Assembly (NCBI GenBank): GCA_030645475.1
Contig: JAUSMA010000016.1
Span: 1 to 64,000 of the forward strand
DNA from: Nitrospirota bacterium
Lineage (GTDB): Bacteria > Nitrospirota > Nitrospiria > Nitrospirales > Nitrospiraceae
Reading direction: 5' to 3'
DNA length: 64,000 nucleotides
The translations under genes were made by a program, and so were the position numbers. Shown here piece after piece: positions 2,806 to 50,041 of the stretch (within the stretch, counting starts at the first letter, position 1; the number at the start of each line of letters is the position of its first letter). Below the pieces are notes generated by a model. The model was not told the origin of the DNA, ran no database searches, and saw nothing but the letters and a program-made list of their open reading frames with translations.

Positions 2806-2815
2806 AGGACGGGGG

Positions 2816-4370: not shown

Positions 4371-4425
4371 GGGACGCGATTCTAGGCAACCCTCCGTCAC
4401 CTGTCAAACGTGACGTGACGACCAA

Positions 4426-33737: not shown

Positions 33738-33750
33738 CAAGAGTTTCACT

Positions 33751-33821: not shown

Positions 33822-33961
33822 CCTTATTGTTTTTGGAACGAAAAATGTTCGCCGGCAGCGGCGAGGCTGCCGAATAGAACAGTGGACGATCACAGCGGGG
33901 CAGGGTCAATCTCAGCCCGCCGTCCGGAAGAGGGGCGGCGGTAGAAGAAGGAGGCTGCAGT

Positions 33962-36900
33962 ATGAAAAAGGTATCGGGTTCGCACAGCTGCCGGGCTTAC
34001 CGCGCGGCGGCAAGTCTGCCGGCAGCGCTGCTCGTCAGCAGTTTGCTGGCATCCCCGATGGGGCTGGCCGCAGAGCAGCATGGTCACCACGGCGACGTGG
34101 GGGAGGCATCAGCAGACAAGGTAATTTATCGCGAGGGCGGATCGGTCCTGCACGACCGTATGATGGAGGAGGTGAAGCGTCAACAGGAATCGATCGGTCA
34201 GAAAGGCGGGTATAGTACGGGCGCCAACAGCCATATGTTACAGCAAGGCGTTCTCCTGGTGACGGAGGATCCGACGAAAGTCTCCGTCAACAACGGGCAG
34301 CGCTGTCCGGCCACCGCCCCGGTGAAAGACTATCACGTCTCGGCGATCAACATCGAAATTACGCTGAGCCGGTTCCTCGACTATTTCCCGGGCTACATGT
34401 ACGTGCTCACAGAGAATGTCGAGAAAGTCCGCGGCGAAGAAGCCGCGAACAAGGCGGCGCGGGAAAAGGAAAACGATCCCGGCGCCGTGTCGAACGGGTT
34501 GCAGGGCGATGTCATTCAGCCCCTCGTGATCCGGGCCAACCAGGGCGATTGCCTCAAGCTCACCTTGCACAACGATATCAAGGATGAAGTTTCCAGCCTG
34601 ATCATCAATGGGTCCTCCATGGTGGTGTCGGCCTCAGGAAAACCCGCCACTCCGTCCGATCCCGATGCAACGGTCCCGTCCGGCGGCAAGCAGAGCTTCG
34701 AATGGTACATCAAGCCGGATACCCAGGAGGGGGCGAGGTTTTTCCGATCGCATGCGTCGCGCGACCAGTTCAACCAGGGCTTGATCGGCATGCTGGTGGT
34801 GGAGCCGCGCGGCTCACGCTATCTCAGCCCGTTCGACGGCAAGCCGATGGCCAGCGGCTGGGAGGCCATGATCGAAGATCCCAAGGGCGCGGACTTCCGG
34901 GAATTCGCGATTTTCTATCATGAGGCCGGCGACGAAGCGTTCCGTCTCTTGAACAAGAAGGGCGAAATGCTGCCCCAGCGCGATCCGCATACCGATTCCT
35001 ATCGGCCGGGCGCGCGGTTACTGAACTACCGCAGTGAACCGCACGGCACGCGCATCGAGCTTCAGGCCCACATGGGCTTCTATGGCGATGAGTCCATGGC
35101 GTACGGGTCCTATACCTTCGGCGATCCCGCCACGACCATTCCCCGGTCCTACCTCGGCGATCCGGCCAAGTTCCGGATGGCGGGCGGCTCGGAAATCGTG
35201 CACTCGCATCACCTCCACGGCGGCTCCATCCGCTGGGCGCGCCAGCCGGGGAATAGCAACCTGGACTTCGCGGTGTCGAAGAACGGGCCGGTGAAGTTCC
35301 CTCCGATCAGCGATCCCTCAGACCGTTTGGACGTGCAGTCCATCGGGCCGACAGAGGTCTACGATCAGGTGATTGAGGGTGGGTCGGGGGGCCTGCAAGC
35401 CCTGGCCGGTGAGTTCGTGTTCCATTGCCACATCCCGCAGCATTATGTGACGGGCATGTGGGGCTTCTGGCGCGTGTACAACACGCTGCAGCAGCCGGGC
35501 TCCCAGACCGACGTGATGAAGCCGCTGGTCGAGCTGCCGGATCGCATCGGCAAGATCAAGACGGGCACTTCGTCGGACAAGCTTGTCGGCACGACGGTGG
35601 ACTGGTACGGCGGCAAGAAGTACGAGATCACCAAGGACAAGACCGATTGGAAAGCCAACCCGGTCAAGGTCTCCATCAAGGATTGGGTGGAGATGATGCT
35701 CACGCCGCAAGGCAAGCCGGGCAAGAAGAGCACCGAGAAAGAGCAGACGCTGGCCTACGATGCGACGGTCAACGATTGGGCGTGGGATGGGAGCAAGGCG
35801 CTCAGCGAGCCAGAGACCTCGTACGAATGGGTCAACTACAAGTCGGCGACGCCGGGCAAGCGGCAGGAGATTCTCTTCGATTCGCAATCCGGCAAGATCG
35901 CCTGGCCGTGGTTACGGCCGCACCTGGGCCGGCGCGTGCCGTTCTCTCCGAGCCACAGCGGCGCGCCGTGGCTGGAGCCGATCCATCGCCGCGAGGACGG
36001 CAGCAACTCCACCGAACCGCCGAAGCCGGGCGAGCAAGGGCCCTGGAGTCTGTGCCCGGAAGGGGCGCCGCTGAAGTCCTTCAATATCCACGCGATCGGG
36101 TTGCCGATCACGCTGAAGACGGCGACGGCCAAGACGCCGGCGATCGTAGATCCGGGTGGATTGCTCTATGTACTGCATGAAGAAGAGCAGGAAGTCCGGA
36201 AGAATCCCGCCAAGCAGATGCCGCTGGTGATCCGCGGCAACGTACAGGATTGCATCGACGTCGTGTACAAGAGCGAGTTGAAAGATGATGAGCGGCAAGG
36301 GTTCTCCAGCAAGACGAACCTGCATCCGCACATGTTCCAGTTCGACACGCAGGCGTCGGACGGCCCGATCATCGGTTTCTCGTACGAGATGTCGCTGCGA
36401 CCGTTCACGATCCTGAAGGACGAGCATCCCGGCAAGGGCATGCCCGTGCCGATGAACACGACGATGGAGGCCGATGCCGCGAAGGGGACGGCCAGCATCA
36501 AAGTGAAGGATGCCTCCCGGTACCACGTCAAGACCGAGTTGGGCGTGGGGATGGACGAAGTGAATGGGTTCGAGTCGGCGCGCATCAGCAAGATCGAGGG
36601 CAACACGATCACGTTCGAGCGGCCGCTGAAGTATAGCCATAAGAAGGGCGAGATCGTGTCGGTGGAGTGGATCCGTGAACGGTGGTATGTGGACGCCGAT
36701 TTCGGGACCACTTTCTGGCACGACCATGTGTTTGGATTGGACGGGTGGGGCCATGGTTTCTACTCCACCTTCATCGCCGAACCGCCGCGGTCCACGTATC
36801 ATGACCCGGTGACCGGCAAAGAAATCCGCAGCGGGCCGGTGGCGGACATTCATACCCTCGAACCGGTGTCCGCGCATATCCGGGGCTCCTTCCGTGAAAT

Positions 36901-38713
36901 CGTGACCCAGGTCATGGATTCCAATCCCCGGACCGCGGAACTCATCACGGCCGACAATCCACAGGCGAGAGTGGGGGCCATCTCGGTGGACGGCACGCCG
37001 TCTGCGGTCTATCCGGCCAAACTCAACCTGTCGCCGATGAAGTTTTTGAACGGCGGCGAAGCGACGACGGGCGGCGGCTACAACATGCGCGTCGAGCCCT
37101 TGTCAGTGCGGCTCGCGAACAATCCGGATCCGTCGCAACTGTTCAGCAGTCTGATCCACGGCGATCCCGGGACCCCGATGTTGCGGGCGTACTTGGGCGA
37201 TCCGATCGTGGTCCGGTTGATCGAAGGATCGGCCAACGAAGTGCATTCCTGGCACATCAGCGGCCACTGGTTCCCGATGGAGCGGTACAGCAAGAACTCC
37301 ATTCCCAGAAGTTCGCTGCACGTGGTGATCGGAGAGCGGTACGATGCGGCCATTCCGGCCGCAGGAGGACCGCAACAGATGGCGGGCGACTACCCCTACT
37401 ACAGCGGTCGCGCGTCGCACTTCGTGGAAGGCAGCTGGGGCCTCTTCCGGGTATTGGACAAAGCGGATGCGACGCTGAAGCCGCTGCCGGGACGGGAAGA
37501 GATCCCGCAGTCGGCCAAGTCCGTCTGCCCGGCCGATGCGCCGGTGAAGACCTTCAATGTTGCAGCTATCGACAAGGCGATTCGCTATAACAAGGGCACG
37601 CCCGGTGTGATGGAAGTGGACATGGAGCGGAAGATGGTGTTGGGGAACGAGACCGGCAAGATGTACGTGCTCGAAGGCGAGAAGACCAAGGTCGCCGCGG
37701 GCAGCATTGAACCGAGCCCGTTGACCCTGCACGTGAACGTGGGTGATTGCATCAAGGTCAATCTCAAGAACGAGATGGCCAAGGAGCGGGCCGGGTTCCA
37801 CGTCGACCATGTGGCGTACGATCCCAAGGAGTCGATGGGAATCAACGCCGGGAACAACCCCGGCGACCAGACGGTGGCGCCGGGGCAGAGCCGGACCTAC
37901 ACGTTCTTCGCGCATCCGGAGTTCGGGGAGAACGCCGCCCTGATTCAGGATTGGGGGAATGTGATCGAGAATCCGCGGAACGGGCTCTTCGGAGCGATCG
38001 TCATCGGTCCGAAGGGATCGCAGTATCGCGATCCGGCGACCGGCGAAGATCTGGCCCAGAAGAGTTCCTGGCGAGCGGACGTGATTGTGGACCGGAGCCT
38101 GTCGGGCAACGAGACTCGACAGAACTATCGATCTTTCGCGCTCCTGTTCCAGGATGAAGACAACATCATCGGCACCAGCTTCATGCCCTACATCCAAAAG
38201 GTGGCAGGCGTGACGGCGGTGAATTACCGGTCCGAGCCGACCGATTATCGGGTCGAGAAGGGTTGTGCGTACAGCGAAGTGTTTGCCTGCGTCAAGACGG
38301 GCGACACTCCGGTGACGCCGGCCATCGCGGCGCATGTGGGCGACCCGGTCGTGATTCATGTCCTCGGCGCGTTCAGTGAACAGGTGCAACTGTTTAGCGT
38401 GTCGGGCCATGAGTGGAAGCACGAGCCCTACATGAGCGGGGCGGACCTCGTGAGCACCATGGAGTTCGGCGGCACCGAGGTGATCAATGCCTGGCTGCAT
38501 GGTGGGGCCGGAGGTCCGAACGGGATCCCTGGCAACTATCTGTGGCTGAACCAGAGACCGGGGTATCTCGACGCCGGTCACTGGGGGACGTTGACGGTGC
38601 TCGACCGCGACAGCCGGGCGATCCTGCCGCTGAGCGGGCAGGCGCCGGCCACGCAACAGGCTGAAGAGCAGACTCCAGTGCAGTCTGTGCCGGTGTCCAT
38701 GAAGGCCAACTAG
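33962..38713 (+). CDS. Giant multicopper-oxidase-like periplasmic protein 1
   Basis: A 1,583-residue secreted protein (signal peptide ending SPMGLAAEQ) made of several cupredoxin-type domains in three blocks. Block 1 has R262-S-H264, a cluster HSHHLHGG (H414-H419) and the type-1/trinuclear motif HCHIPQHYVTGM (H488, C489, H490, H494, M499). Block 2 has HPH (788-790), WHDHVFG (H920, H922) and HSWHISGHWFPM (H1095 to M1106). Block 3 (about 1200-1583) keeps cupredoxin-like strands but few ligands. The first HxH pair is RSH here and HSH in the paralogue. The family is larger than typical multicopper oxidases (about 500 aa). The substrate is unknown; metal oxidation is a possibility only. Confidence 0.85.
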   Translation: MKKVSGSHSCRAYRAAASLPAALLVSSLLASPMGLAAEQHGHHGDVGEASADKVIYREGGSVLHDRMMEEVKRQQESIGQKGGYSTGANSHMLQQGVLLVTEDPTKVSVNNGQRCPATAPVKDYHVSAINIEITLSRFLDYFPGYMYVLTENVEKVRGEEAANKAAREKENDPGAVSNGLQGDVIQPLVIRANQGDCLKLTLHNDIKDEVSSLIINGSSMVVSASGKPATPSDPDATVPSGGKQSFEWYIKPDTQEGARFFRSHASRDQFNQGLIGMLVVEPRGSRYLSPFDGKPMASGWEAMIEDPKGADFREFAIFYHEAGDEAFRLLNKKGEMLPQRDPHTDSYRPGARLLNYRSEPHGTRIELQAHMGFYGDESMAYGSYTFGDPATTIPRSYLGDPAKFRMAGGSEIVHSHHLHGGSIRWARQPGNSNLDFAVSKNGPVKFPPISDPSDRLDVQSIGPTEVYDQVIEGGSGGLQALAGEFVFHCHIPQHYVTGMWGFWRVYNTLQQPGSQTDVMKPLVELPDRIGKIKTGTSSDKLVGTTVDWYGGKKYEITKDKTDWKANPVKVSIKDWVEMMLTPQGKPGKKSTEKEQTLAYDATVNDWAWDGSKALSEPETSYEWVNYKSATPGKRQEILFDSQSGKIAWPWLRPHLGRRVPFSPSHSGAPWLEPIHRREDGSNSTEPPKPGEQGPWSLCPEGAPLKSFNIHAIGLPITLKTATAKTPAIVDPGGLLYVLHEEEQEVRKNPAKQMPLVIRGNVQDCIDVVYKSELKDDERQGFSSKTNLHPHMFQFDTQASDGPIIGFSYEMSLRPFTILKDEHPGKGMPVPMNTTMEADAAKGTASIKVKDASRYHVKTELGVGMDEVNGFESARISKIEGNTITFERPLKYSHKKGEIVSVEWIRERWYVDADFGTTFWHDHVFGLDGWGHGFYSTFIAEPPRSTYHDPVTGKEIRSGPVADIHTLEPVSAHIRGSFREIVTQVMDSNPRTAELITADNPQARVGAISVDGTPSAVYPAKLNLSPMKFLNGGEATTGGGYNMRVEPLSVRLANNPDPSQLFSSLIHGDPGTPMLRAYLGDPIVVRLIEGSANEVHSWHISGHWFPMERYSKNSIPRSSLHVVIGERYDAAIPAAGGPQQMAGDYPYYSGRASHFVEGSWGLFRVLDKADATLKPLPGREEIPQSAKSVCPADAPVKTFNVAAIDKAIRYNKGTPGVMEVDMERKMVLGNETGKMYVLEGEKTKVAAGSIEPSPLTLHVNVGDCIKVNLKNEMAKERAGFHVDHVAYDPKESMGINAGNNPGDQTVAPGQSRTYTFFAHPEFGENAALIQDWGNVIENPRNGLFGAIVIGPKGSQYRDPATGEDLAQKSSWRADVIVDRSLSGNETRQNYRSFALLFQDEDNIIGTSFMPYIQKVAGVTAVNYRSEPTDYRVEKGCAYSEVFACVKTGDTPVTPAIAAHVGDPVVIHVLGAFSEQVQLFSVSGHEWKHEPYMSGADLVSTMEFGGTEVINAWLHGGAGGPNGIPGNYLWLNQRPGYLDAGHWGTLTVLDRDSRAILPLSGQAPATQQAEEQTPVQSVPVSMKAN

Positions 38714-38738
38714 GCCGGAATAGACATCAGGAAACGGT

Positions 38739-38784
38739 GCGGGGGAATCCGACAGGTGTATGTCCGGGTTCCCCCGTTCCTTTT
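38739..38784 (+). terminator. Rho-independent terminator after copper-oxidase gene 1
   Basis: CGGGGGAATCC pairs with GGTTCCCCCG around a ~16-nt loop, then CCTTTT follows. The stem is GC-rich and lies 26 bp after the stop codon. Confidence 0.65.
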
Positions 38785-38843
38785 CGCGGATGGGAGGGGA
38801 GCGCGTCTTGAAGCGGGGCTCAGCCGTGAGGTAGAACCACCAC

Positions 38844-39440
38844 ATGGGACAGAGGGGGCACAGGGAACAGTTTCAGTGGCTCTTGGGATCTCTGGCGGCG
38901 TTTTTGTTCGTCGTCATGGCTGACGACGTCACGGCGCTCGATTTTTCCGCCGAGCGGATCGTCACGAGTGGGAAGAAGGTGGTGACCGCCCACGTCAATG
39001 CCAAGGACGATCGCTGGCGGTTCGAGTTCGCCCAACCGCAAGGGGGCGCCAGCATCATTATCGTGCGGATGGACCGCCACAGCTCCTGGCTCATTTTGTC
39101 CAAGCGGCGGCAGTATCTTGAGGTGCCGATTGCGAGAGACCATCAGTTGGCGGTGAGCGAAACGATGGAAGGAGAACTCTCGCGCGAATTCGTCGGCGAG
39201 CAAACGCTGAACGGCTATCCCACCGAGCTGTTCGAAGTCACCGTTGCGGAGAGTGGGGGATCCAGACAATATTATCAATGGGTGACCAAGGTTCAGCGGT
39301 TTCCGGTGCAGACGGTGAGCAAGCAGGGCAAGTGGTCGGAGGAGTTTCGCCATGTGATCTTCACCGAGCAATCTCCGTTCTTATTCGAACTCCCGCAACG
39401 ATTGGATCGGGCGAATCCGCCTGCGGAGACGCGACAGTAG
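38844..39440 (+). CDS. Secreted LolA-like/DUF4412-type protein
   Basis: A 198-residue protein with a signal peptide (FLFVVMADDVTA region). The mature part is built from paired beta-strands (FSAERIVTSGKKVVTAHVN and RRQYLEVPIARDHQLAV), like LolA/LolB or DUF4412 half-barrels. It lies between oxidase gene 1 and the blue-copper gene and has no counterpart in module 2. An uncommon N-terminus (MGQRGHREQFQW) and a distant GAGGT make the start less sure. The function is unknown. Confidence 0.65.
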   Translation: MGQRGHREQFQWLLGSLAAFLFVVMADDVTALDFSAERIVTSGKKVVTAHVNAKDDRWRFEFAQPQGGASIIIVRMDRHSSWLILSKRRQYLEVPIARDHQLAVSETMEGELSREFVGEQTLNGYPTELFEVTVAESGGSRQYYQWVTKVQRFPVQTVSKQGKWSEEFRHVIFTEQSPFLFELPQRLDRANPPAETRQ

Positions 39441-39469
39441 CTGACGCAAGACGTGGAGGAGGGACACCA

Positions 39470-40243
39470 GTGAAAAGATCAATCAGGATGGGCCTGTGTC
39501 TTGGTGTAATTGTTCACATGAGCATGGGGTTCGGAGTCCTGTGGCAGGCCAGCGCGTATGACACCGTTGCTGTGACGGACGGGGCGGTGGTGCGGGGCAC
39601 GGTGACGTTTAAAGGGACTGCACCGGAGCCCAAAGAGTTCGAGTTGCGCCGATACCCGGATCGCGTCTTTTGCGGCGCCCTGTCAGAGGGGGACGGACGC
39701 CGGTTTCTCAAGGAAGTGAATGTCGGACAGGGCGGCGGTCTCAAGGATGTGGTGGTCGTCGTGGAAGGGGTGCAGAGCGGGAAGCCGTTCACCTTTACGA
39801 ATGCCCAGGTCGAAGCCAATGTGTGCCAGTTTCTTCCCTTCGTCACTGTCGTGAGCGACAAGCGGCAACTGACCGTGACCAATCGAGATCCGGTGTCGCA
39901 CGATATTCAGGGCTACAGCTACGACCAGTCCGGCGTGGACATTGTCCTCCACCGGCCTTCGCTCATGGCGACCGGGACCACGGATGTCGTGCATCTGGTC
40001 AAAGGGCGGAAAATTTTCACCATGCAGTGCGGGATGCATCCCTACATGCAGAACTGGGGGTATGCGATCGACAACCCCTATTATGCTGTGACAGACTTGG
40101 ACGGCTCATTTTCCATCGGTGACCTTCCTCCCGGCACCTACCGTGTGAAAGCCTGGCATCCGATTCTGGGCGTCCAAGAACGGGAGCTGACAGTCGAACC
40201 GAAGGGCACCGCCACGCTCGATGTACTGTTTGACGCGAACTGA
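39470..40243 (+). CDS. Blue-copper (cupredoxin-like) protein with C-terminal beta domain, module 1
   Basis: A 257-residue secreted protein starting at GTG 39470 (GGAGGAGGG upstream). After the signal peptide, residues about 35-200 form a cupredoxin-like fold with a probable type-1 copper set: H144 (VSHDIQG), C187, H190 and M193 (MQCGMHPYM). The C-terminal ~55 residues (DLDGSFSIGDLPPGTYRVKAW) match carboxypeptidase-regulatory-like or transthyretin-like beta domains. It is part of the oxidase module and resembles the protein at 48292 along its whole length. Electron transfer from or to the large oxidase is the plausible role. Confidence 0.8.
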   Translation: MKRSIRMGLCLGVIVHMSMGFGVLWQASAYDTVAVTDGAVVRGTVTFKGTAPEPKEFELRRYPDRVFCGALSEGDGRRFLKEVNVGQGGGLKDVVVVVEGVQSGKPFTFTNAQVEANVCQFLPFVTVVSDKRQLTVTNRDPVSHDIQGYSYDQSGVDIVLHRPSLMATGTTDVVHLVKGRKIFTMQCGMHPYMQNWGYAIDNPYYAVTDLDGSFSIGDLPPGTYRVKAWHPILGVQERELTVEPKGTATLDVLFDAN

Positions 40244-40256
40244 CCGGAGGCCAATG

Positions 40257-40760
40257 ATGAACAACCGAGCCGTCGTTCTTGTCATGCTCCTTGGAATGCT
40301 GCCGGTCGGCTCGGCTCTGGCTGCGGAGCAGGAGCCCCCTTCAGCGGGACGGGTTGAAGTGGTGTTGGCAGATGAGCATCGCAAGAATGTGAACGAGATT
40401 AAGCAGGAATTTGCTGAGGCCGGCCTTACGAACATCCATATTCAATTCATGAAAGTGGGCCGTCCGCCGACCAATATCGGTGTTGGGCCGCAGGTGACGG
40501 CGGAGCGCGCGCGAGCTGCCATCCGGCTGGCGAAGCACTACAATCGGGGCATCACGATCCTCTTGCCGGAGAGGCTCTTCCCAGACCACTATGTGACGAT
40601 CGCCTCCTCCAGCTTCGACGACACCGTGGAATATCCCGTGAACGAGGAGGCCATGAAGGAATTGGAGAATCCAGTGCTCACGACGGAGCAGTTTCACGCG
40701 TTGTACCGCCGACTGACGCCGGCCAATCAATTGCCAGTGAAGAAAGGCCGGGTGTTCTAA
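40257..40760 (+). CDS. Small secreted protein of unknown family, module 1
   Basis: A 167-residue protein with a signal peptide (VVLVMLLGMLPVGSALAA). Start chosen at ATG 40257, 6 nt after GGAGG; ATG 40254 is too close. The mature part has RVEVVLADEHRKNVNEIKQE, then LLPERLFPDHYVTIASSS with FDDTVE, and a C-terminal helix LTTEQFHALYRRL. The same order and motifs occur in the module-2 protein at 49072, so it is a conserved family. I recognise no known domain and no metal site. It stands between the blue-copper gene and the SmbP-like gene in both modules. Confidence 0.7.
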   Translation: MNNRAVVLVMLLGMLPVGSALAAEQEPPSAGRVEVVLADEHRKNVNEIKQEFAEAGLTNIHIQFMKVGRPPTNIGVGPQVTAERARAAIRLAKHYNRGITILLPERLFPDHYVTIASSSFDDTVEYPVNEEAMKELENPVLTTEQFHALYRRLTPANQLPVKKGRVF

Positions 40761-41167
40761 TGGGACTCAAACAAGTTTTCATAATTGTCGTGCTGTCTTT
40801 CTCTGTCGGGACGTCTTTCGTTCAGGCGGGGTCGCCGAAAGACATTCAGGATCGCGGGAAGGCGATGCTCCGAGATGCCGAGGAAATGGTCATGCATGGA
40901 GGGATGGGTGATGGGAAGGCCATCGTGCATCACTGCGGTGAAGTGGCGAAACATGCGGAAGCGATTCTCAAGGCGTTGCCGCCCATAGACGAGCATGGCA
41001 AGGAAGCCGTGCCCCATTTACAGGAAGCCATCAAGCAGTGTAAGCGGGTGGCTGAGATGGGCGACAAGGTCGATCCCGGCGCCAGCTTAAACCCCGCCAC
41101 GAAAGCTCGCGCAGCGGCCAGGGAGGCGATGAAGCATCTGAATGCGCTGCGGGATGGTGGCGCATAG
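40760..41167 (+). CDS. SmbP-like small metal-binding protein, module 1
   Basis: A 135-residue secreted protein with a signal peptide (IIVVLSFSVGTSFVQAG). The mature helical protein is rich in His and acidic residues, with HHCGEVAKHAEAILKALPP and HGKEAVPHLQEAIKQ, resembling the small metal-binding protein SmbP of Nitrosomonas (a four-helix bundle that binds copper and other metals). The paralogue at 49580 has the same helices. It overlaps the stop of the preceding gene by one base. Metal buffering in the periplasm next to the copper oxidase is a reasonable reading. Confidence 0.7.
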   Translation: MGLKQVFIIVVLSFSVGTSFVQAGSPKDIQDRGKAMLRDAEEMVMHGGMGDGKAIVHHCGEVAKHAEAILKALPPIDEHGKEAVPHLQEAIKQCKRVAEMGDKVDPGASLNPATKARAAAREAMKHLNALRDGGA

Positions 41168-41202
41168 AAACGGGCTGCGCGCGACAAGCGCAATCCGAAG
41201 GC

Positions 41203-41270
41203 TGAAGTCCGAAGGCTGAAGGTCGGGGTTCGAAGTTCCGAACACTTTAGTCTTCAGTCTGCTTCACCCG
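41203..41270. repeat. Short direct and inverted repeats in the module-1/module-2 junction
   Basis: TCCGAAGGCTGAAG occurs twice in tandem (41203-41231), and CTTCAGTCTGCTTC follows in the opposite sense. No gene is seen in 41168-41322. Confidence 0.45.
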
Positions 41271-41322
41271 TTGCGCATTTCCAGACAATCTCACCCGTCT
41301 CGTTTTATGAGTGCGGCGCAGT

Positions 41323-41943
41323 CTATGGAGCATCGGGCTTCGGCGCCAGAGGGCTGACCGCATTTTGATCTCGCCCCGCCTGATAGCTCTCCAGCATTCT
41401 GGTGATCGCCGGCATCAATCGTTCTTGTGCCGAGACCGGCACTTTGATTCGTATCCCGCGGCCCTCGTTGCGACCGAGTGAAAAGATGTGGAGTTCGATC
41501 ATTTCGCCGTGCGTGGCATCCTGATACGTGAATGCCAATTGTTTCGCGGGGAATCCGGCCAGCGACATCTCCTGATCCTGCCGCCACTTCACCGTGATCG
41601 CTTTCTTGCCGTAGAGTTCCGTGATAATGCGGCGATGGGCTGCGGCAAATTCAGCGAGCGTCTGCCGTCCATCCTGGCTCTTGCCCTCCAAGACATTCAT
41701 GTGGCCGGATAGCGCGACGAGGCTGCTGTCGATAGGGGGGTAGAGCGTTACGCCAATTCCGTCCGGTATCGGATTTCCAAGACGCCAATGTTCCGGGTAA
41801 CGGACGGAGAAGCCGAAGCGGGCATTGGTATAGAGCTTCCACGCGGTGGCGTCGATTGTTCCAGCAGCAGCGGGGGCGCCGTCTTGCACGCCGAACGCGT
41901 GGATCAATAAGAGGGCGATGATGAGCAAGCTTGGCCGTGTCAT
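41323..41943 (-). CDS. Secreted protein of unknown function (PsbP-like domain possible)
   Basis: A 206-residue protein from ATG 41943 (AAGGAG 9 nt upstream). A signal peptide (LLIIALLLIHAFGV) precedes a mature part beginning LYTNARFGFSVRYPEHWRL, the opening of PsbP/DUF1795-type domains. The C-terminus is a Lys/Pro-rich tail. It lies on the minus strand between the two copper modules, next to the SUMF1-fold protein, which is also on the minus strand. The function is not known. Confidence 0.65.
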   Translation of the reverse strand: MTRPSLLIIALLLIHAFGVQDGAPAAAGTIDATAWKLYTNARFGFSVRYPEHWRLGNPIPDGIGVTLYPPIDSSLVALSGHMNVLEGKSQDGRQTLAEFAAAHRRIITELYGKKAITVKWRQDQEMSLAGFPAKQLAFTYQDATHGEMIELHIFSLGRNEGRGIRIKVPVSAQERLMPAITRMLESYQAGRDQNAVSPLAPKPDAP

Positions 41944-41986
41944 GTCATGTTTCTCCTTGGCCTGCCAGGCCACGCAATTACTGTAC

Positions 41987-42904
41987 TCATCGCGCGCAGC
42001 GGAAACCGATGGTCGCGGCGCGCTGATCCAGCGATGCCCCGCTTCTGGTGGCCGTTCGCAACAACACGGGCGTGCTTTTCCACGAGCCTCCGCGCACCAC
42101 CTTGTAGCGTCCGTTGGCCGGACCGCGCGGATTGCGGTCCGGCATGGTCATATAGTAGTCGATTCCGAACCAGTCTTCGACCCACTCGGCGGCATTGCCC
42201 GCCATGTGGTGCAGGCCATAGGGGCTTCGCCCCTCCTCCCCACGATCAACGGGCGCCACGATGGGAATTTCGTGCACGTGATACTGCCCGAACATCGCGA
42301 GCGCAGGCGTGGGAGGTTTTTGTCCCCAAGGAAACAGATTGCCGCTGTCCCCGCGAGCGGCTTTCTCCCACTCGGCTTCCGTCGGGAGCCGCTTGCCGTG
42401 CGCGTGACAGAAATCCGAGGCCTCAGACCAGGTGACGTAGAGTGCCGGCCACCGTGCCAATGTTTCGGGCGATAGGGCATGGATGGTCGTGACGTGATCG
42501 ATCAGTTTTCCCACTTCCTCGGGGGGGAGGCGTTGTTGCTGCCTCAGCCATAGTAAGTATTCTCCCAGACTCACCTCGTCTCGATCGATTTCATACCGAT
42601 TGAGCCAGACGCGTCGCTGCGGCTGCTCAGTGTCGTCATATTGAAGATCCAAGCTGAATGGTTTGTCGGTGTAGCGGGCGGTGCCCATGATGAACGTGCC
42701 CTCGGGGACAGGCAGCATTGGAGATTCGTCCGAACGTGCGACGATTGCATCGAGAGGGCTTCGCACATCGCCTCTCGTTTCGGCAGAGCCGGATGAGAGT
42801 GATGCCCCTAGGAGTATGATGACGACGACGAAGATGCAACTGCCGACGTAGAGACAAGCCGGAATGCGGCGCGTGCATGTGATCGTGCGAGTGCTGTTCT
42901 GCAT
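41987..42904 (-). CDS. Membrane-anchored SUMF1/FGE-fold protein
   Basis: A 305-residue protein with an N-terminal membrane anchor (LYVGSCIFVVVIILLGASL) and a ~240-residue FGE-sulfatase domain. The domain has VPEGTFIMGTARYTDKP, EIDRDEVSLGEYLLW, GKRLPTEAEWEKAARGDSG, HMAGNAAEWVEDW and VRGGSWKSTPVLLRTATR. The two active cysteines of true formylglycine-generating enzymes are absent from the GGSW region, so it is more likely a structural or EgtB-like relative. ATG 42904 has GGAG 5 nt upstream; a longer start at 42937 is less likely. It is in the gap between the two copper modules, opposite to them. Confidence 0.8.
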   Translation of the reverse strand: MQNSTRTITCTRRIPACLYVGSCIFVVVIILLGASLSSGSAETRGDVRSPLDAIVARSDESPMLPVPEGTFIMGTARYTDKPFSLDLQYDDTEQPQRRVWLNRYEIDRDEVSLGEYLLWLRQQQRLPPEEVGKLIDHVTTIHALSPETLARWPALYVTWSEASDFCHAHGKRLPTEAEWEKAARGDSGNLFPWGQKPPTPALAMFGQYHVHEIPIVAPVDRGEEGRSPYGLHHMAGNAAEWVEDWFGIDYYMTMPDRNPRGPANGRYKVVRGGSWKSTPVLLRTATRSGASLDQRAATIGFRCAR

Positions 42905-43204
42905 GAGGCTCCGATGCCAGGACGAAAAGGGTGTCACTATAATACGAGGATATTATCGGCACAAGGATGAAGGGGAAGGTCATCGTGCGGTGTTTCATCA
43001 TTCGGCATGAATGGGACATCTGCGCCCCATTGGGCGGAATCTTCAGACAATTCACAATCCACTTCTCCCATCAGCTGTTTATCGTAATCTCGTCGCGAAG
43101 AGTGGGGCGTTGATGTCCCATGACGTGACGTGAGTCGCCATCGGCAGAATCGAAATCTGCCTGAATCGTTGAGGAAACCCCTCTCAGGTTCCACCAGCTT
43201 TGGA

Positions 43205-43220
43205 TGGAACGGTATTTGCT
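43205..43220 (+). promoter_or_regulatory. Sigma-54 promoter (-24/-12), copper-oxidase gene 2
   Basis: TGGAACGGTATTTGCT matches TGGCACG-N4-TTGCW except for A at position 4. The GG/GC spacing is correct. The predicted start is near 43231. Confidence 0.65.
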
Positions 43221-43264
43221 CATCCATCGTCCGATTTACTGTGTGCTTGAGTATTGAACACCTG

Positions 43265-43337
43265 TCCGGTGAAGGCTGCGTAATTTATGGACTGGCCTCC
43301 TGAAATCGCAACCGCGCAGAGCGGAACCTTCACCGGA
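43265..43337 (+). ncRNA. Structured 5' leader of copper-oxidase gene 2
   Basis: TCCGGTGAAGG (43265-43275) pairs with CCTTCACCGGA (43327-43337), again 11 bp. The outer three pairs differ from leader 1 in a compensatory way (GCT/AGC against TCC/GGA). The inner word TATGGACTGGCCTCCTGAAA corresponds to TTTGGACCGGCCTCTGAA in leader 1. The surrounding 540-bp gap 42905-43444 holds the sigma-54 site and this element, and no other gene is supported. Confidence 0.55.
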
Positions 43338-43444
43338 CTATATTTATGACAGGACGCGAATGCGCCTCACCGCGCCAGCGTCGAGTGTATGGAGTTGCTG
43401 TGGATGGACGGTATTCAACGGTTGTTGTTCAGGAGGGGAAAAGG

Positions 43445-46400
43445 ATGACCAGTAGAAAGATCATGAGTCAGGCAGGAGTCGCGTTGCTTGCCGCCGTCTT
43501 AGGCGTCACGCAGACATGGGCAGAAGCGACGCCGCATCAACATACGGCCGCGGAGGCGACGGTCGTCCATCAGGCTGCCGGCCCGATGATGCAGGACAAG
43601 ATGTCGAAGGCTGTCCTGCAGATCGAGCGGGAGGTCAAGACCAAGGGACCGTTCCAGGGGGCCGGCGCCCACGCGATGCAGCAGGGTGTGCTGCTCGTGG
43701 CTGAGGACCCGGACAAGGTGCAAGTGACGCAGGGTGCTCGTTGTCCGGTGACCGCCCCTGTCCGTGCCTATGATGTCACGGCGATGAATGTCGAAATCAC
43801 CGTCAATCGGTTCGGCGATTTCTATCCGGGGTACATGTATGCGTTGACCGAGAACGTGGCCGGGGTGCGCGAGGAAGAAACGAAGAATAAGGCGGCGCGG
43901 GAGAGTGAGGATCCGACCTTTGCCGGCGGCGCCGTTTCAAATGGCCTGCAGGGCGATCTCATTCAGCCGCTCGTGATCCGGGCGAATCAGGGCGATTGTC
44001 TGCGGTTAACCTTGCGCAATCAGATTGCGGACGAGCCGACGAACATGATCATCAACGGTTCCCAGATGCTCGTGGCGAGCACGGGGAAGCCGGCGACGGG
44101 CAATAATCCTGACGCGCTGGTTCCAACCGGTAAGAGCGGGGAATTCGAATGGTACATCCCCATCGATTTGCAGGAAGGCGGCCGCGCGTTCCATAGCCAT
44201 GCGAGTCGGGATCAGTACTCCCTGGGCCTCTTGGGATCGCTCGTGGTCGAGCCTCGCGGCTCCCGTTTCCTCAGCCCGTTCACGGCGGAGGAGATGAAGA
44301 GCGGCTGGGAAGCCATCATCGATGTGGCGAACAGCTCAGACTTCCGTGAATTCGTCATTTTCTATCATGAGGCGGGCGACGAGACGTTCCGTCTCTTGAA
44401 TCGAAAGGGCGACATGCTGCCGCAGCGCGATGCCCACACGGACACCTATCGTCCATCCGCGCGTTTGCTCAACTATCGTAGCGAACCACACGGTGAACGT
44501 CTGGAAATCCAGGCGCATCTGGTCGGGTTTGCCGATGAATCGCAGGGCTATGGGTCCTATACCTTCGGCGATCCGGCGACGACGGTTCCGCGATCCTATC
44601 TGGGTGATCCGGCCAAGTTCCGGATGGTCGGCGGTTCGGAAATCGTGCATTCGCACCATATGCATGGTGGATCCATCCGTTGGGCCAGACAGCCTGGCAC
44701 CAGCAAACTCGATCCGACCCTGTCCAAGAATGGTCCGGTGAAGTTCCCGCCGATCAGCGACACCTCTGACCGGCTCGATGTGCAATCCATCGGTCCGTCG
44801 GAGATTTATGACGAAGTGATCGAAGGTGGATCGGGCGGCTTGCAGGCCCTGGCCGGCGAGTTCGTGTTCCATTGCCATATCCCGCAGCATTATGTGACGG
44901 GCATGTGGGGTTTCTGGCGCGTGTACAACACGCTGCAAACGCCGGGCGTGCAAACCGACGTGATGAAGCCGCTCGTCGAGTTGCCAGACCGGAAGGGCAA
45001 GAATAAGCAGGCGGTCAACTCAGACAAGTTGGTCGGCACCACGGTGGACTGGTACGGCGGGAAGAAGTACGAGATTACCAAGGACAAAACGGATTGGAAG
45101 TCCAATCCCGTGAAAGTCTCGATCAAGGATTGGGTCGAGTACATGCTGCCGCCGCAAGGATTGCCCGGCAAGACGGAAGACCAGGTCAAGCAGGCGCAGG
45201 CGCACGATGCGACGGTCGTGAACTGGAAGTGGGACGGCGCACTGGCGCTCAACGAGCCGGAGACGCCGCACAAGTGGGCGGACTATGTGTCGCCGACTCC
45301 GTTGAAGCGTCCGGCGATCACGTTCGATCCGCAGACCGGCAAACTGGCCTTCCCTTGGCTGCGTCCGCATCTCGGGAAGCGGCCTCCGTTTGCGCCGAAT
45401 CACGGAGGCGCGCCTTGGTTGGAGCCCTTCCGCGTACGGGAAGATGGAACGAGAAGTACCGAACAGGCCAAGCCTGGCGAGCAGGGGCCCTGGAGCCTCT
45501 GTCCGGAACATTCTCCACGCAAGTTCTTTACGATCCATTCCATCACGCTGCCGATTACCCTCAAGCCGGCGACTCCGAAAACCGCCGCGATTGTGGACCC
45601 AATCGGTATGATCTACGTCCTGCATGAAGAAGAGGAAGAGGTTCGCAAGAATCCCAAGAAGCAGCTGCCCTTGGTGATTCGAGGCAATGTCTACGATTGC
45701 GTCGATGTCATCTTCAAGAACGAAATTCCAGACGATGCACGGACGGGATGGGCGAATAAGATCAACCTCCATCCGCATTTCTTCCAGTTCGACACGAGCG
45801 CATCGGACGGACCCACCATCGGGTTCTCGTACGACATGTCGCTGCGGGCCTTCACGATGTTGGAAGATCCGCAACCGGACAAGGGTATGCCATTGCCCGG
45901 CAATACGGTGCTGACGGCGGATACCAAAGCCGGTGTGCGCAGCATTACGGTGAAGAATTCGGAGAAGTTCCATGTCAATACCGAACTCGGCGTCGGCATG
46001 GATGACCCGAAGTATTTCGAAGTCGCGCGGATCAAGGACATCAAGGGCAATACGATCACCTTCGATGCTCCGTTGAAGTACGGACATAAGAAAAACGACA
46101 TCGCCAGCGTGGAATTCATTCGTGAGCGCTGGTATGTAGACGCGGATCTCGGGACGGTGTATTGGCACGACCATGTGTTCGGTACCGATACCTGGGGCCA
46201 TGGGCTGTTCTCGGCCTTCATCACCGAGCCTCCGCGCTCGACCTATCACGATCCGGTGACCGGGAAGGAACTCCGGAGCGGTCCCATCGCGGACATTCAT
46301 ACCCTGGAACCGGTGTCGGCCCATATCCGGGGCAGCTTCCGCGAAGTCATGATGCATATCATGGACAGCAATGCGCGATCGGCAGAACTGATCACCACCG

Positions 46401-48163
46401 ACAATCCGCAAGCCAGGATGGGGGCGACGACCGTCGATGGGCCTCCGTCGCATCAGTTCCCTGAGCGGATCAACAAGTCCGCCATGACGTTCCTGAACGG
46501 CGGCGAAGCCACGACGGGCAGCGGCTACAGCATGCGTGTGGAGCCGTTGAGCGTGCGCCTCGCCAACAATCCGGACCCGTCGAAGTTGTTTGTGTCCGGT
46601 ATTCATGGCGATCCGGGCACACCGTTGCTCCGGGCCTATCTCGGCGATCCGATTATGGTTCGTGCACTTGTCGGTTCCGCCAATGAAGTCCATACGTGGC
46701 ACGTGACGGGGCACTGGTTCCCGATGGAGCGCTACGGGATCATGGCGATGCCGCGGAGCACGATTCACTTGGCGATCGGAGAGCGCTACGACCCGGCCAT
46801 TCCAGCTGCGGGCGGACCGCAGAAACAAGCGGGCGACTACATGTATTACAGTGGCCGTGCCTCGCACTTTGCGGAAGGCAGTTGGGGCCTCTTCCGTGTC
46901 TTCGATGAACTGCAAGGGGATCTGAAGCCCTTGCCGAGCCGTGAGCAGATTCAAAAGTCGGCCTCGTCGGTTTGTCCGGCGGAGGCGCCCCTGAAGACGT
47001 TCGACGTGTCGGCGATCGATCAGCGTATCCGGTTCCACGAAGGAACGCCCGGTACGATGGAAGTGGACCTTGAACGCAAGATGGTCTTCGAGAACGAGCA
47101 GGGCAAGATGTACATCCTTGCTGCAGATCGTGCGAAGGTCACGTCCGGCGAATTGAAGCCGAGCCCTCTGACCTTGCATGTGAACGTCGGCGATTGCGTG
47201 AAGATCAATCTGAAGAACGAGATGGCCAAAGAACGAGCCGGGTTCCACGTCGATATGATGGCGTTCGATCCGAAAGATTCGTTCGGCGCCAATGTCGGCA
47301 ACAATCCCGGCGATCAAACGATCGCGCCGGGCCAGAGCAAAACGTACACCTACTATGCACATCCGGAGTACGGTGAACTGGCGGCCCTCATCCAGGATTG
47401 GGGCAACGTGGTGGAGAATCCACGGAACGGTCTGTTCGGGTCCATCATCGTCGGTCCGAAGGGGTCGCGCTATCGTGACCCTATGACCGGCGACGACATC
47501 ACGATGAAGAGCAGCTGGCGTGCCGACGTGCTGGTGGATCGGACGATCCCCGGCAACGATACTCGGAAGAACTACCGCGACTTCTCCTTGATGTTCCAGG
47601 ACGAGGATAATATCGTGGGCGTCAGCTTCATGCCCTACATCCAGCAGGTGGCTGGTATCTCAGCGGTCAACTATCGCTCGGAACCGGCTGCATGGCGGAT
47701 CGAAAAGGGCTGTGACCTCTTCCAGGTCTTCAGTTGTGTGAAGGCCGGTGAGGAGCCAGTGACGCCGCTGCTGCAGGCGCATCTCGGCGACCCGGTGGCG
47801 ATTCACGTACTCGGCGCCTTCAGCGAGCAAGTGCAGTTGTTCACCGTGGACGGCCATGAATGGCCACATGAGCCCTACATGCAGGGTGCCGACCAGGTCA
47901 GCACCATGGAGTTCGGCGGTTCCGAGGTCATCAACGCCTATCTCACGGGCGGCGCCGGTGGACCGAATAAAATCGCCGGCGACTATATGTGGAAGAACCA
48001 GCGTCCGGCCTATGCAAATGCCGGGCAATGGGGACTCTTCAAAGTCCTTCCCGTCGGTGACCAGCACATTCTCTCACTGGCCTCACAGCTTCCTGCCGGC
48101 AAGACGGCGGAGCGTGAGACGGACGGCGGGAGTCTCGTGCGGACATCGATGGGCGGACGATAG
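43445..48163 (+). CDS. Giant multicopper-oxidase-like periplasmic protein 2
   Basis: A 1,572-residue secreted protein. The start at ATG 43445 gives a normal signal peptide (MSQAGVALLAAVLGVTQTWAEA) and has AGGAGG upstream; the ORF is open from 43346 but that start lies next to the leader stem. Domain order is as in protein 1: HSH at 250-252, HSHHMHGG, HCHIPQHYVTGM (H476, C477, H478, H482, M487), then LHPHFFQFD, WHDHVFG and HTWHVTGHWFPM, and a third cupredoxin-like block. Unlike protein 1, the first HxH pair is complete. The paralogues are similar throughout, including the linkers. Oxidation of a metal or other small substrate in the periplasm is the general family function. Confidence 0.85.
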   Translation: MTSRKIMSQAGVALLAAVLGVTQTWAEATPHQHTAAEATVVHQAAGPMMQDKMSKAVLQIEREVKTKGPFQGAGAHAMQQGVLLVAEDPDKVQVTQGARCPVTAPVRAYDVTAMNVEITVNRFGDFYPGYMYALTENVAGVREEETKNKAARESEDPTFAGGAVSNGLQGDLIQPLVIRANQGDCLRLTLRNQIADEPTNMIINGSQMLVASTGKPATGNNPDALVPTGKSGEFEWYIPIDLQEGGRAFHSHASRDQYSLGLLGSLVVEPRGSRFLSPFTAEEMKSGWEAIIDVANSSDFREFVIFYHEAGDETFRLLNRKGDMLPQRDAHTDTYRPSARLLNYRSEPHGERLEIQAHLVGFADESQGYGSYTFGDPATTVPRSYLGDPAKFRMVGGSEIVHSHHMHGGSIRWARQPGTSKLDPTLSKNGPVKFPPISDTSDRLDVQSIGPSEIYDEVIEGGSGGLQALAGEFVFHCHIPQHYVTGMWGFWRVYNTLQTPGVQTDVMKPLVELPDRKGKNKQAVNSDKLVGTTVDWYGGKKYEITKDKTDWKSNPVKVSIKDWVEYMLPPQGLPGKTEDQVKQAQAHDATVVNWKWDGALALNEPETPHKWADYVSPTPLKRPAITFDPQTGKLAFPWLRPHLGKRPPFAPNHGGAPWLEPFRVREDGTRSTEQAKPGEQGPWSLCPEHSPRKFFTIHSITLPITLKPATPKTAAIVDPIGMIYVLHEEEEEVRKNPKKQLPLVIRGNVYDCVDVIFKNEIPDDARTGWANKINLHPHFFQFDTSASDGPTIGFSYDMSLRAFTMLEDPQPDKGMPLPGNTVLTADTKAGVRSITVKNSEKFHVNTELGVGMDDPKYFEVARIKDIKGNTITFDAPLKYGHKKNDIASVEFIRERWYVDADLGTVYWHDHVFGTDTWGHGLFSAFITEPPRSTYHDPVTGKELRSGPIADIHTLEPVSAHIRGSFREVMMHIMDSNARSAELITTDNPQARMGATTVDGPPSHQFPERINKSAMTFLNGGEATTGSGYSMRVEPLSVRLANNPDPSKLFVSGIHGDPGTPLLRAYLGDPIMVRALVGSANEVHTWHVTGHWFPMERYGIMAMPRSTIHLAIGERYDPAIPAAGGPQKQAGDYMYYSGRASHFAEGSWGLFRVFDELQGDLKPLPSREQIQKSASSVCPAEAPLKTFDVSAIDQRIRFHEGTPGTMEVDLERKMVFENEQGKMYILAADRAKVTSGELKPSPLTLHVNVGDCVKINLKNEMAKERAGFHVDMMAFDPKDSFGANVGNNPGDQTIAPGQSKTYTYYAHPEYGELAALIQDWGNVVENPRNGLFGSIIVGPKGSRYRDPMTGDDITMKSSWRADVLVDRTIPGNDTRKNYRDFSLMFQDEDNIVGVSFMPYIQQVAGISAVNYRSEPAAWRIEKGCDLFQVFSCVKAGEEPVTPLLQAHLGDPVAIHVLGAFSEQVQLFTVDGHEWPHEPYMQGADQVSTMEFGGSEVINAYLTGGAGGPNKIAGDYMWKNQRPAYANAGQWGLFKVLPVGDQHILSLASQLPAGKTAERETDGGSLVRTSMGGR

Positions 48164-48242
48164 CCAGCATCCGGTGGCCTGCGTGCCTCAGGGCGCGCAG
48201 GCCACAAACACAGGTGCTAAGCCGGTCCCAAATCACTCAGCC

Positions 48243-48270
48243 CATGGGGGAGCCTGCGGGCTCCCCCATG
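48243..48270 (+). terminator. Strong hairpin between oxidase gene 2 and blue-copper gene 2
   Basis: CATGGGGGAGCC and GGCTCCCCCATG pair perfectly (12 bp) around a TGCG loop. No long T-run follows, so it may act as a partial terminator or as an RNA-stability element between the genes. Confidence 0.55.
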
Positions 48271-48291
48271 AACATTTGTAGGGTGGAGAAT

Positions 48292-49068
48292 ATGCCTGGA
48301 TCTGTGCGCCGATTCGCAACGAACATGATGATAGTGGTGACGCTGACGGTTGGGCTGGGCGGCATGGCGCAAGCCGGAGCCTATGAGGAAACAACCGTCG
48401 CCAATGGCGGGACGGTCACGGGGACGGTGAAATTTTCCGGTGAGCTGCCGGAGCCGACACGATTCGAGCTGCGCCGGTACTACGATCGTGCCTATTGCGG
48501 CGCCCTCTCGGATGGTTCCGGCTATCGGCTCCTTCGCGAAGTGGCCGTTGGTGAACAGCAGGGATTGAAAGATGTGATCGTCACCATCGAGGGAGTCGTA
48601 AAGGGGAAGCCCTTCGAATTTCAGGAGACAAAACTCGAAGCGAACATCTGTCAATTCGTACCCTTTGTCTCTGTCATGAGAAATGAGCATCCGCTGAGCG
48701 TGGTCAACCTGGATTCAGTTGCGCATGATCTGCAGTTTTATGAACGGGAACGGGAACACATTTTTATCATGTTTCACCGGCCGGCCCTGACCAAGGCAGG
48801 GACCAGCGACATCGTTCGGCTCACAGGGAATCGGCACGGGGTCACCATGCAATGCGGGATGCACCCCTATATGCAGGGGCATGGGCTTGCCGTGGAGAAC
48901 CCCTACTATGCCATCACCGGGATGGAAGGGACCTTTGCCATCAAGGATCTTCCGCCTGGGACCTATCGCATCAAGGCCTGGCATCCGACTCTTGGCGAGA
49001 AGGAACAGGCAATCACGGTGACTGACAATGGGGCTGCGTCGGTTAGTTTTACCTTTGAGGCAAAGTAG
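48292..49068 (+). CDS. Blue-copper (cupredoxin-like) protein with C-terminal beta domain, module 2
   Basis: A 258-residue secreted protein from ATG 48292 (GGTGGAG upstream). The type-1 copper set H145 (VAHDLQF), C188, H191 and M194 (MQCGMHPYM) has the same spacing as in the module-1 paralogue. The C-terminal segment GMEGTFAIKDLPPGTYRIKAW forms the carboxypeptidase-regulatory-like domain. It follows oxidase gene 2 after a 128-bp gap containing a strong hairpin. Function as in module 1: probable electron carrier or copper donor. Confidence 0.8.
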   Translation: MPGSVRRFATNMMIVVTLTVGLGGMAQAGAYEETTVANGGTVTGTVKFSGELPEPTRFELRRYYDRAYCGALSDGSGYRLLREVAVGEQQGLKDVIVTIEGVVKGKPFEFQETKLEANICQFVPFVSVMRNEHPLSVVNLDSVAHDLQFYEREREHIFIMFHRPALTKAGTSDIVRLTGNRHGVTMQCGMHPYMQGHGLAVENPYYAITGMEGTFAIKDLPPGTYRIKAWHPTLGEKEQAITVTDNGAASVSFTFEAK

Positions 49069-49071
49069 GTC

Positions 49072-49578
49072 ATGAAACTGCACCGATATGTGAGTGCCAG
49101 CATGATCGCTGTCTGTATCTTGGCGATCGGTGTGCCCGCCCTCTTTGCCGAGGGAACGGAGGCTCCCTCGGTGAGCCGGGTCGAGGTGGTACTCGCCGAT
49201 CGCTTGAAGAGTCAGGTGGCGGCGGTACGCGAGGAGTTCGTCCAAGCAGGGTTGACGAACGTTCACTTTCAATTCGCCAAACTGGGCCAGCCACCGCAGA
49301 ACATCGGCTTCGGCCGGGATGTGCCGGCCGAGAGGGCTCGGGACGCGATCCGCTTGGCGCTGAAATACAATCTTGGCGTCGGGATTTTGTTGCCTGAACG
49401 GCTCTTTCCTCCTCGGTTCGTGACCATCGCCTCGTCGAATTACGACGATACAGTCGAGTTTCCGATCGGCCAGGCTGCTCTTGCGCAACTTCAGAACCCC
49501 GATCTCACGACAGACGAGTTTCATCGGCTCTATCGTACATTGACCTCATCCTCGGCAGAACCGAAGGGACGGTATTAG
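49072..49578 (+). CDS. Small secreted protein of unknown family, module 2
   Basis: A 168-residue paralogue of the module-1 protein at 40257. The signal peptide is SMIAVCILAIGVPALFA. The mature part keeps RVEVVLADRLKSQVAAV, LLPERLFPPRFVTIASSN, YDDTVE and LTTDEFHRLYRTL. It starts 3 bp after the stop of the blue-copper gene. The conserved segments show that the family is under selection in both modules. No known domain is recognised. Confidence 0.7.
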   Translation: MKLHRYVSASMIAVCILAIGVPALFAEGTEAPSVSRVEVVLADRLKSQVAAVREEFVQAGLTNVHFQFAKLGQPPQNIGFGRDVPAERARDAIRLALKYNLGVGILLPERLFPPRFVTIASSNYDDTVEFPIGQAALAQLQNPDLTTDEFHRLYRTLTSSSAEPKGRY

Positions 49579-49579
49579 G

Positions 49580-50041
49580 ATGGGGTACGTGCGGCCGACT
49601 CCGATTCTCAATGTGGGGATGATCGCCACCATGCTGTTGGGGGCTGTCACGCTCACGTGGCTTCAACCGGCGTTGGCCGTGGAGATCTCCCTGGCGTCTG
49701 AAATTTCAGGATCGAAGCTCCGGGAAGAGGCGGATGATTTGATGAAGAATGCCGAAGAGATGGTGGCGCATGGGGGAATGGGGGATACCAAAGCGATCGT
49801 CCATCACTGCGGTCAGGTCAGTACACAGGCAGAAGCGATTCTAAAATCTCTTCCTCCGACCGATCCGCATGGCACGGAAGCCCAGCCCTACCTATTGGAG
49901 GCGATCAAGCAATGCCGGCGGGTTGCGGACTTGGGGGACTGGGTCGATCCGGGGGCGAGTTTGAATCCGGCGATCAAAGCCAGAGCAGCTGTGCGCGAAG
50001 CCGTGAAGCATTTGGCTGCTGTCAGAGAGAGCGGAGCGTAA
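49580..50041 (+). CDS. SmbP-like small metal-binding protein, module 2
   Basis: A 153-residue paralogue of the protein at 40760, with a longer N-terminus and the signal-like run MIATMLLGAVTLTWLQPALA. The mature part has EEMVAHGGMGDTKAIVHHCG, QVSTQAEAILKSLPPTDPHG and EAIKQCRRVADLGDWVDPG. His, Asp and Glu are enriched on the predicted helices. It starts one base after the preceding stop, closing module 2. Confidence 0.7.
   Translation: MGYVRPTPILNVGMIATMLLGAVTLTWLQPALAVEISLASEISGSKLREEADDLMKNAEEMVAHGGMGDTKAIVHHCGQVSTQAEAILKSLPPTDPHGTEAQPYLLEAIKQCRRVADLGDWVDPGASLNPAIKARAAVREAVKHLAAVRESGA

Follow-up and report, generated by a model that had tools for sequence, protein, structure and literature searches.

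The closest described relative of the enzymes considered here is MnxG, the Mn(II) oxidase of marine Bacillus, which works together with the small copper-binding proteins MnxE and MnxF; these are encoded in the same operon and are required for activity (PMC5622069). A related multicopper oxidase (MCO) was reported in 2013 in Nitrospina gracilis and Nitrospira defluvii, where a protective role against reactive oxygen species (ROS) by way of Mn(III) was proposed (PMC3578206), and the enzyme is therefore not new. Within the same phylum, 'Candidatus Manganitrophaceae' are Mn lithotrophs (PMC9040806). The MnxG-like enzyme family as such is thus already known. As far as the sources that we searched show, what is new is the gene module defined below, its orphan protein family, and a leader RNA that is matched by a reverse-complement ribosome-binding site.

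The window analyzed here, a stretch of 64,000 nucleotides at the start of a Nitrospirota contig (C16), belongs to a 3.75-Mb genome that is 99.9% complete. It carries two paralogous gene sets on the same strand and in the same order, an MCO followed by a blue-copper protein (BCP), an orphan secreted protein (UNK) and an SmbP-like protein (SMB), as listed in Table 1. The two MCOs are 70% identical over 1552 aa, and the partners are 51% (BCP), 55% (UNK) and 61% (SMB) identical between modules; the DNA repeats keep a constant spacing of 9447 nt across most of the MCO. A sequence-only reading of this DNA had proposed a tandem four-gene duplication in fixed order with an additional gene in module 1, and both features are borne out. 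The label 'LolA-like' for that additional gene is not, since Pfam gives no LolA-family match for it at E<1 or at E<0.01. The same reading placed a kinase/NtrC pair directly upstream; the pair is present, but a second NtrC-like protein lies between it and MCO1. Its outline also omitted two genes between the modules, one for an FGE/SUMF1-like protein and one for an unassigned protein, which run convergently to module 1 and adjoin the modules in many relatives too. Signal peptides were judged by eye.

Table 1. Features of the locus in window coordinates; module 1 spans 33962-41167 and module 2 spans 43445-50041.
Feature	Position	Strand	Evidence or remark
Sensor histidine kinase (dCache_1, HAMP, HisKA, HATPase_c)	28596..30650	+	Pfam; orthologues near module in relatives
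NtrC-type sigma-54 activator (receiver, Sigma54_activat, weak Fis HTH)	30629..32044	+	Pfam; adjoins module in relatives
Second NtrC-like regulator (receiver and AAA+ domain)	32220..33434	+	Pfam; adjoins module in relatives
Module 1 sigma-54-type -24/-12 promoter, TGGCACTGTTTTTGCG	33722..33737	+	
Copy 1 of the structured leader RNA (loop GGACCGGCCTCT, 33773-33784)	33750..33824	+	Covariance model 58.9 bits (copy used in building the model)
MCO1, giant MnxG-like multicopper oxidase, 1583 aa	33962..38713	+	PDB 9bxa, Pfam Cu-oxidase_2/3, 12/12 Cu ligands
Secreted protein, module 1 only	38844..39440	+	Kept in M1 of relatives
BCP1, type-1 copper cupredoxin-like, C-terminal CarboxypepD_reg-like domain	39470..40243, start approximate	+	
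UNK1, secreted orphan family	40254..40760	+	No Pfam family
SMB1, SmbP-like small metal-binding protein	40760..41167	+	PF16785 E=1.2e-9
Protein without Pfam family, between modules	41323..41973	-	Kept near modules in relatives
FGE-sulfatase (SUMF1)-like protein, between modules	41987..42937	-	PF03781 E=3.1e-43; kept near modules
Module 2 sigma-54-type -24/-12 promoter, TGGAACGGTATTTGCT	43205..43220	+	
Copy 2 of the structured leader RNA (loop GGACTGGCCTCC, 43289-43300)	43264..43340	+	Covariance model 66.3 bits (copy used in building the model)
MCO2, giant MnxG-like multicopper oxidase, 1572 aa	43445..48163	+	NF041487 E=8e-43 (below cutoff); 9bxa
BCP2, type-1 copper cupredoxin-like	48292..49068, start approximate	+	
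UNK2, secreted orphan family	49072..49578	+	
SMB2, SmbP-like	49580..50041	+	PF16785 E=9.2e-5, below curated cutoff; 61% to SMB1

Homology to MnxG extends along the multi-domain chain of the large proteins: MCO1 matches the Bacillus enzyme (PDB 9bxa) with E=1.4e-99 in five stretches, and the N-terminal part of MCO2 does so with E=2.3e-64. Scores against the NCBIfam MnxG equivalog NF041487 are 118 and 146 bits, far under its 3100-bit cutoff. The twelve copper-ligand positions, in MCO2 H402, H405, H407, H476, C477, H478, H482, M487, H776, H778, H908 and H910, are invariant in all 24 MCO sequences compared, which span all clades. When residues are assigned by standard MCO motifs, H402, C477, H482 and M487 would make up the type-1 site and the eight remaining histidines the trinuclear site, the ligand set expected of a multicopper oxidase. 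The HxxHxH, HCH, HxH and HDH motifs occur in the same order in the 9bxa alignments, and the type-1 histidine of HCHxxxH aligns there with an alanine, so that the type-1 site of that MnxG domain may differ. An AlphaFold model of MCO2 residues 91-960 failed (pLDDT 41). Because the large proteins are MnxG homologues, the 'unknown substrate' of the sequence-only reading can be narrowed, with Mn(II) or another metal ion as the probable leading candidate.

The same genome encodes two more giant MCOs on other contigs, C15 and C67, which are 56% and 53% identical to MCO1. The C67 copy (45-4739), at the very end of its contig, shows one in-frame TAG in the search output. No NXR-like gene was seen by eye among the ORFs flanking these two paralogues, and the linkage described for N. 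defluvii was accordingly dropped for them. At the columns of MCO2 G461, L466, Q481, K576 and A1022, most of the other paralogues (clades A and B and class-level MCOs, as defined below) carry extra conserved Cys or His residues that M1 and M2 do not have, a pattern that suggests additional metal or disulfide sites in those enzymes.

In BCP, a putative amicyanin-like type-1 set (H143, C186, H189 and M192, with a short Cys-x2-His-x2-Met loop) is kept together with C67 and C118 in 61 of 62 sequences. The SMB alignment retains HGGMGDxKAIxHHC, in which K and I are consensus positions, plus a second cysteine; against PF16785, SMB1 scores 38.7, above the gathering threshold, and SMB2 23.0 against a threshold of 29. 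UNK belongs to no Pfam family that we could find. The model of UNK2 is usable (pLDDT 80) and describes an alpha/beta protein, for which the PDB gave no fold match at E<0.001; a 30-residue match to a designed protein (E=0.0005) was not counted as homology. A third UNK copy was not found in the same genome.

We considered how far the gene set holds together in relatives, whose names are nearly all Nitrospira or Nitrospirae. UNK occurs in 71 of 396 Nitrospirota genomes, and at the 56 named UNK loci of Nitrospira an MCO lies on the same strand within 2 kb in 54. An SmbP-like gene is present at 46 of these loci and BCP at 43, many of the absences falling on short contigs. Diverged UNK copies also occur in distant families of the class, where 20 of 27 loci have an MCO beside UNK, on either strand. 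The layout of M2 in relatives is MCO-BCP-UNK-SMB and that of M1 is MCO-(extra gene)-BCP-UNK-SMB, with UNK or the extra gene sometimes missing. The homologues are not found apart in most of these loci, and the set is a genuine unit.

In a quick maximum-likelihood tree, M1 and M2 form separate clades within the order Nitrospirales, with support of 100 each, and their orthologues are found in several genera; the two versions are thus old, and a recent local duplication is rejected. The order of M1 and M2 differs between genomes. Two further clades, A (the C15 type) and B (the C67 type), branch elsewhere in the tree, and a class-level sequence, L166, sits on a long branch at the base of M1 plus M2. 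This is an M-type MCO from outside Nitrospirales (G226:C1, 13503-18257) and a possible root of the M clade; a UNK homologue is encoded on the opposite strand at a distance of about 3 kb. The module is real, conserved, and more coherent than the sequence-only reading could show. With its linkage conserved, its copper ligands intact and both versions ancient, the proposal of one extracytoplasmic copper-redox system kept in two versions is supported; the interpretation given in the sequence-only reading as a whole is upheld in part.

We suggest, at roughly even confidence, that the modules specify Mnx-like periplasmic metal-oxidizing complexes under NtrC/sigma-54 and RNA-leader control. Each module would encode one such copper complex, in the periplasm or on the outer surface, in which the MCO would oxidize a reduced metal ion, in all likelihood Mn(II) but possibly Fe(II) or Cu(I), and pass the electrons from the type-1 copper to the trinuclear site, where O2 would be reduced. 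The SmbP-like protein could serve as a copper- or metal-binding accessory, as MnxE and MnxF do for MnxG; the cupredoxin BCP may act as an electron shuttle or in copper delivery, and the orphan UNK as a dedicated partner. The adjacent Cache-domain kinase and NtrC regulators would switch on transcription at the sigma-54 promoter, and the leader RNA at the start of the transcript, by means of an anti-Shine-Dalgarno (anti-SD) loop, may tune translation of the MCO by pairing with MCO ribosome-binding sites.

The MCO is present in 58 of 61 Nitrospirales genomes (this genome and its relatives), and since Mn oxidation is not known to be a general trait of nitrite oxidizers, the substrate may differ from Mn(II). 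Such near-universal presence would also fit housekeeping protection, and we consider it possible, if somewhat unlikely, that the modules are oxidative-stress or copper-detoxification devices, in which a periplasmic MCO oxidizes Mn(II) or Cu(I), yielding Mn(III) or Cu(II) respectively, to protect the cell rather than to make mineral or gain energy. The SmbP-like and cupredoxin partners, which are predicted to bind metal, agree with such a role. Classical copper-detoxification MCOs, however, have about 500 aa in three domains, unlike the giant MCO, and the match to CueO reaches only E=0.013. A Mn/ROS role was put forward for the related enzyme of Nitrospina gracilis and N. defluvii, but the Mn(III) proposal is itself speculative (PMC3578206).

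For the metal-oxidizing complex, the control region offers a further set of observations. The Fis HTH of the first NtrC-type regulator falls slightly below the Pfam threshold, and Pfam detects no HTH in the second, which is preceded at 32107 by a one-mismatch sigma-54-like site. Taken alone, the sigma-54 motif is not rarer than chance within the window. Directly upstream of the leader RNA, a GG-N10-GC motif of this type is found in 17/17 M1, 14/19 M2 and 6/9 clade-B loci, against 0.04, 0.04 and 0.01 expected from mononucleotide shuffles, a placement that fits the presence of adjacent NtrC regulators.

Neither this promoter nor the RNA leader that follows it before both MCO genes had been remarked on in the sequence-only reading, which was also silent on the precedent in PMC3578206. 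An inverted repeat around GGACYGGCCTC is common to the two MCO leaders, and this core occurs in the window at these two places only, against 0.08 expected; across the whole genome the longer core GGACYGGCCTCY has eight matches, five of them at the four MCO genes, and the reversed control has three. An alignment of 35 leaders from clades B, M1 and M2 plus one clade-A outlier defines an RNA of about 77 nt with an 11-bp closing stem, 10 of whose 11 pairs show changes on both sides. In the full 16-pair structure 97.3% of cells pair, none of 500 shuffles reaches any of the measures, and slid controls fall far below the covariation of the closing stem. Because the leaders were gathered by the core motif and not by the stem, this covariation does not follow from the way they were chosen. 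Folded singly, most leaders give a three-way junction of P1 with P2 and P3 hairpins, P2 having a hexaloop closed by GGA:UCC. When the M1 leader of the window is folded with its downstream ribosome-binding site, the prediction pairs the loop with that site instead.

The covariance model finds matches in 35 of the 61 genomes and in 93 of 127 Nitrospirales genomes. Compared by hand in the 61 genomes, 44 of 49 matches fall immediately 5' of a listed MCO and share its strand; among the remaining five, G009:C4 and G003:C109 are too near a contig end for a gene and G002:C520 is cut by one. Rfam gives no match at gathering score anywhere in the window, near copy 1 only a chance-level hairpin-ribozyme match by E-value, and identity with a known riboswitch was rejected on that basis. 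We also dropped a coding explanation of the loop as a short M-D-R/W-P-P ORF, since the variable base would alter the encoded residue and some clades lack the surrounding start codon. A literature search on Nitrospira and riboswitches returned no paper on these genes by titles and abstracts, subscription papers lying outside its scope.

The loop contains CCUCC, or CCUCU in the M1 leader of the window, and shows complementarity to the ribosome-binding sites of MCO genes. The M1 and B genes mostly have GGAGGCC(G) as their own site, of which 7-8 nt are complementary to the loop; the window sites are GGAGGCTG (M1) and GGAGGGGAA (M2), the latter pairing mainly through the Shine-Dalgarno sequence (SD) itself, and in 28 of 48 M2 genes the loop motif is not seen within one mismatch. 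The complementarity is longest, at 12-15 nt, with the third MCO paralogue, clade A. These genes have no leader, with L054 as the sole exception, and their ribosome-binding site GGAGGCCRGTCC, just before the ATG, is the reverse complement of the loop; it is present, with one mismatch allowed, in 16/16 clade-A genes more than 70% identical to the copy in this genome. A single copy per genome of the 17-mer AAGGAGGCCGGTCCATG is found in 49 of 296 genomes of the phylum, all of them Nitrospirales, and its reversed control in none. In the present genome it lies on contig C15 at 62446-62462 (about 12446-12462 of locus L055), and a second copy of GGAGGCCGGTCC is found 70 nt upstream. Duplex energies are predicted at -28 to -31 kcal/mol for the clade-A site and at -9 to -20 kcal/mol for the clade B, M1 and M2 sites.

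These observations raise the question of which gene the loop addresses. It might act mainly in trans, the leader RNA of M1, M2 or B silencing the clade-A MCO by masking its SD and start codon, a reading that we place on the unlikely side. It accounts for the presence of the loop's reverse complement within AAGGAGGCCGGTCCATG at the clade-A site, for the energy of the M2 loop with that site (-31.2 versus -14.7 kcal/mol with its own), for the small number of core matches in the genome and their concentration at MCO genes, and for the leader's occurrence in 56 of the 64 genomes with the motif; several diverged clade-A sites, moreover, change C to T and so keep G-U pairing. Yet leader and loop persist where no clade-A gene was found (G019, G027, G086, G102), the motif occurs without a detected leader in some genomes (G047, G054), and at the one variable position loop and site agree in G231 and G049 but do not match in G032 and G023. 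The persistence of the leader in such genomes weakens a pure trans-silencer and makes control of the leader's own gene the more parsimonious candidate for the primary role, with cross-regulation of clade A as an added possibility.

With the MCO as reference, the motif of clade A lies on the strand opposite to that used in clades B, M1 and M2, an arrangement that would also suit a DNA operator, the GGACYGGCCTC(C/T) core being read by a protein regulator in either orientation and the RNA structure being incidental. We regard this as improbable: the flanking stem has strong compensatory change, the core sits just downstream of the sigma-54-type promoter, and the clade-A motif is in exact register with the SD and the ATG. 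Least credible, and in our view very improbable, is a lithotrophic enzyme that would pass electrons from Mn(II) or Fe(II) by way of BCP to the respiratory chain instead of directly to O2. In its favor, the cupredoxin adjoins the MCO, UNK-MCO sets occur also in other families of the class, and a pair of novel MCOs is reported for each of the 'Ca. Manganitrophaceae' (PMC9040806). Against it, the trinuclear site that reduces O2 retains its ligands, and the paper on 'Ca. Manganitrophaceae' itself favors Cyc2 and PCC_1.

If the metal-oxidizing complex is correct, most Nitrospira, which include the main nitrite oxidizers and comammox organisms, would carry several secreted enzymes of manganese-oxidase type with dedicated control, linking the nitrogen cycle to the redox reactions of Mn and Cu in soils, drinking-water filters and sludge. 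As a compact and testable handle, the leader RNA would represent a novel class of bacterial RNA associated with just one family of enzymes, and knowing its ligand should show which physiological signal is sensed. UNK, the orphan, could serve as a genetic marker of the system across the class. A bolder version, which we offer as speculation and think unlikely as a whole, is that a new metal- or redox-sensing class of leader RNAs, made from sigma-54 promoters, coordinates the MnxG-like oxidases of Nitrospirales, each acting on its own MCO and also cross-silencing the paralogue with the reverse-complement ribosome-binding site; the cell would thereby exchange one giant metal oxidase for another.

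Riboswitch-type and trans-acting leader RNAs are exemplified by SreA, and the Nitrospira leader resembles these in being an mRNA 5' leader that combines a closing stem with inner hairpins and a loop of anti-SD type. It differs in lacking an Rfam family and in its association with one enzyme family, with a sigma-54-type promoter and with a paralogue's ribosome-binding site. The SMB proteins are like SmbP (PF16785) by the profile match of SMB1, whereas SMB2 stays under the curated cutoff and both have a distinct invariant HGGMGDxKAIxHHC and two invariant cysteines. The MnxG-like MCO of Nitrospina gracilis and N. defluvii is probably of the same protein family; there, one MCO lies in a gene cluster with NXR, whereas here we find two four-gene modules and two further paralogues, with an orphan partner and a leader RNA (PMC3578206). 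The likeness to the Mnx complex (MnxE3F3G) of marine Bacillus lies in the giant MCO, in its copper motifs, with HxxHxH and HCH before HxH and HDH, and in the small metal-binding partners encoded alongside. The Nitrospira MCO, known here from sequence, is about 350 aa longer than the solved 9bxa chain and falls far below the MnxG equivalog cutoff, and its partners are an SmbP-like protein, a cupredoxin and UNK rather than MnxE and MnxF.
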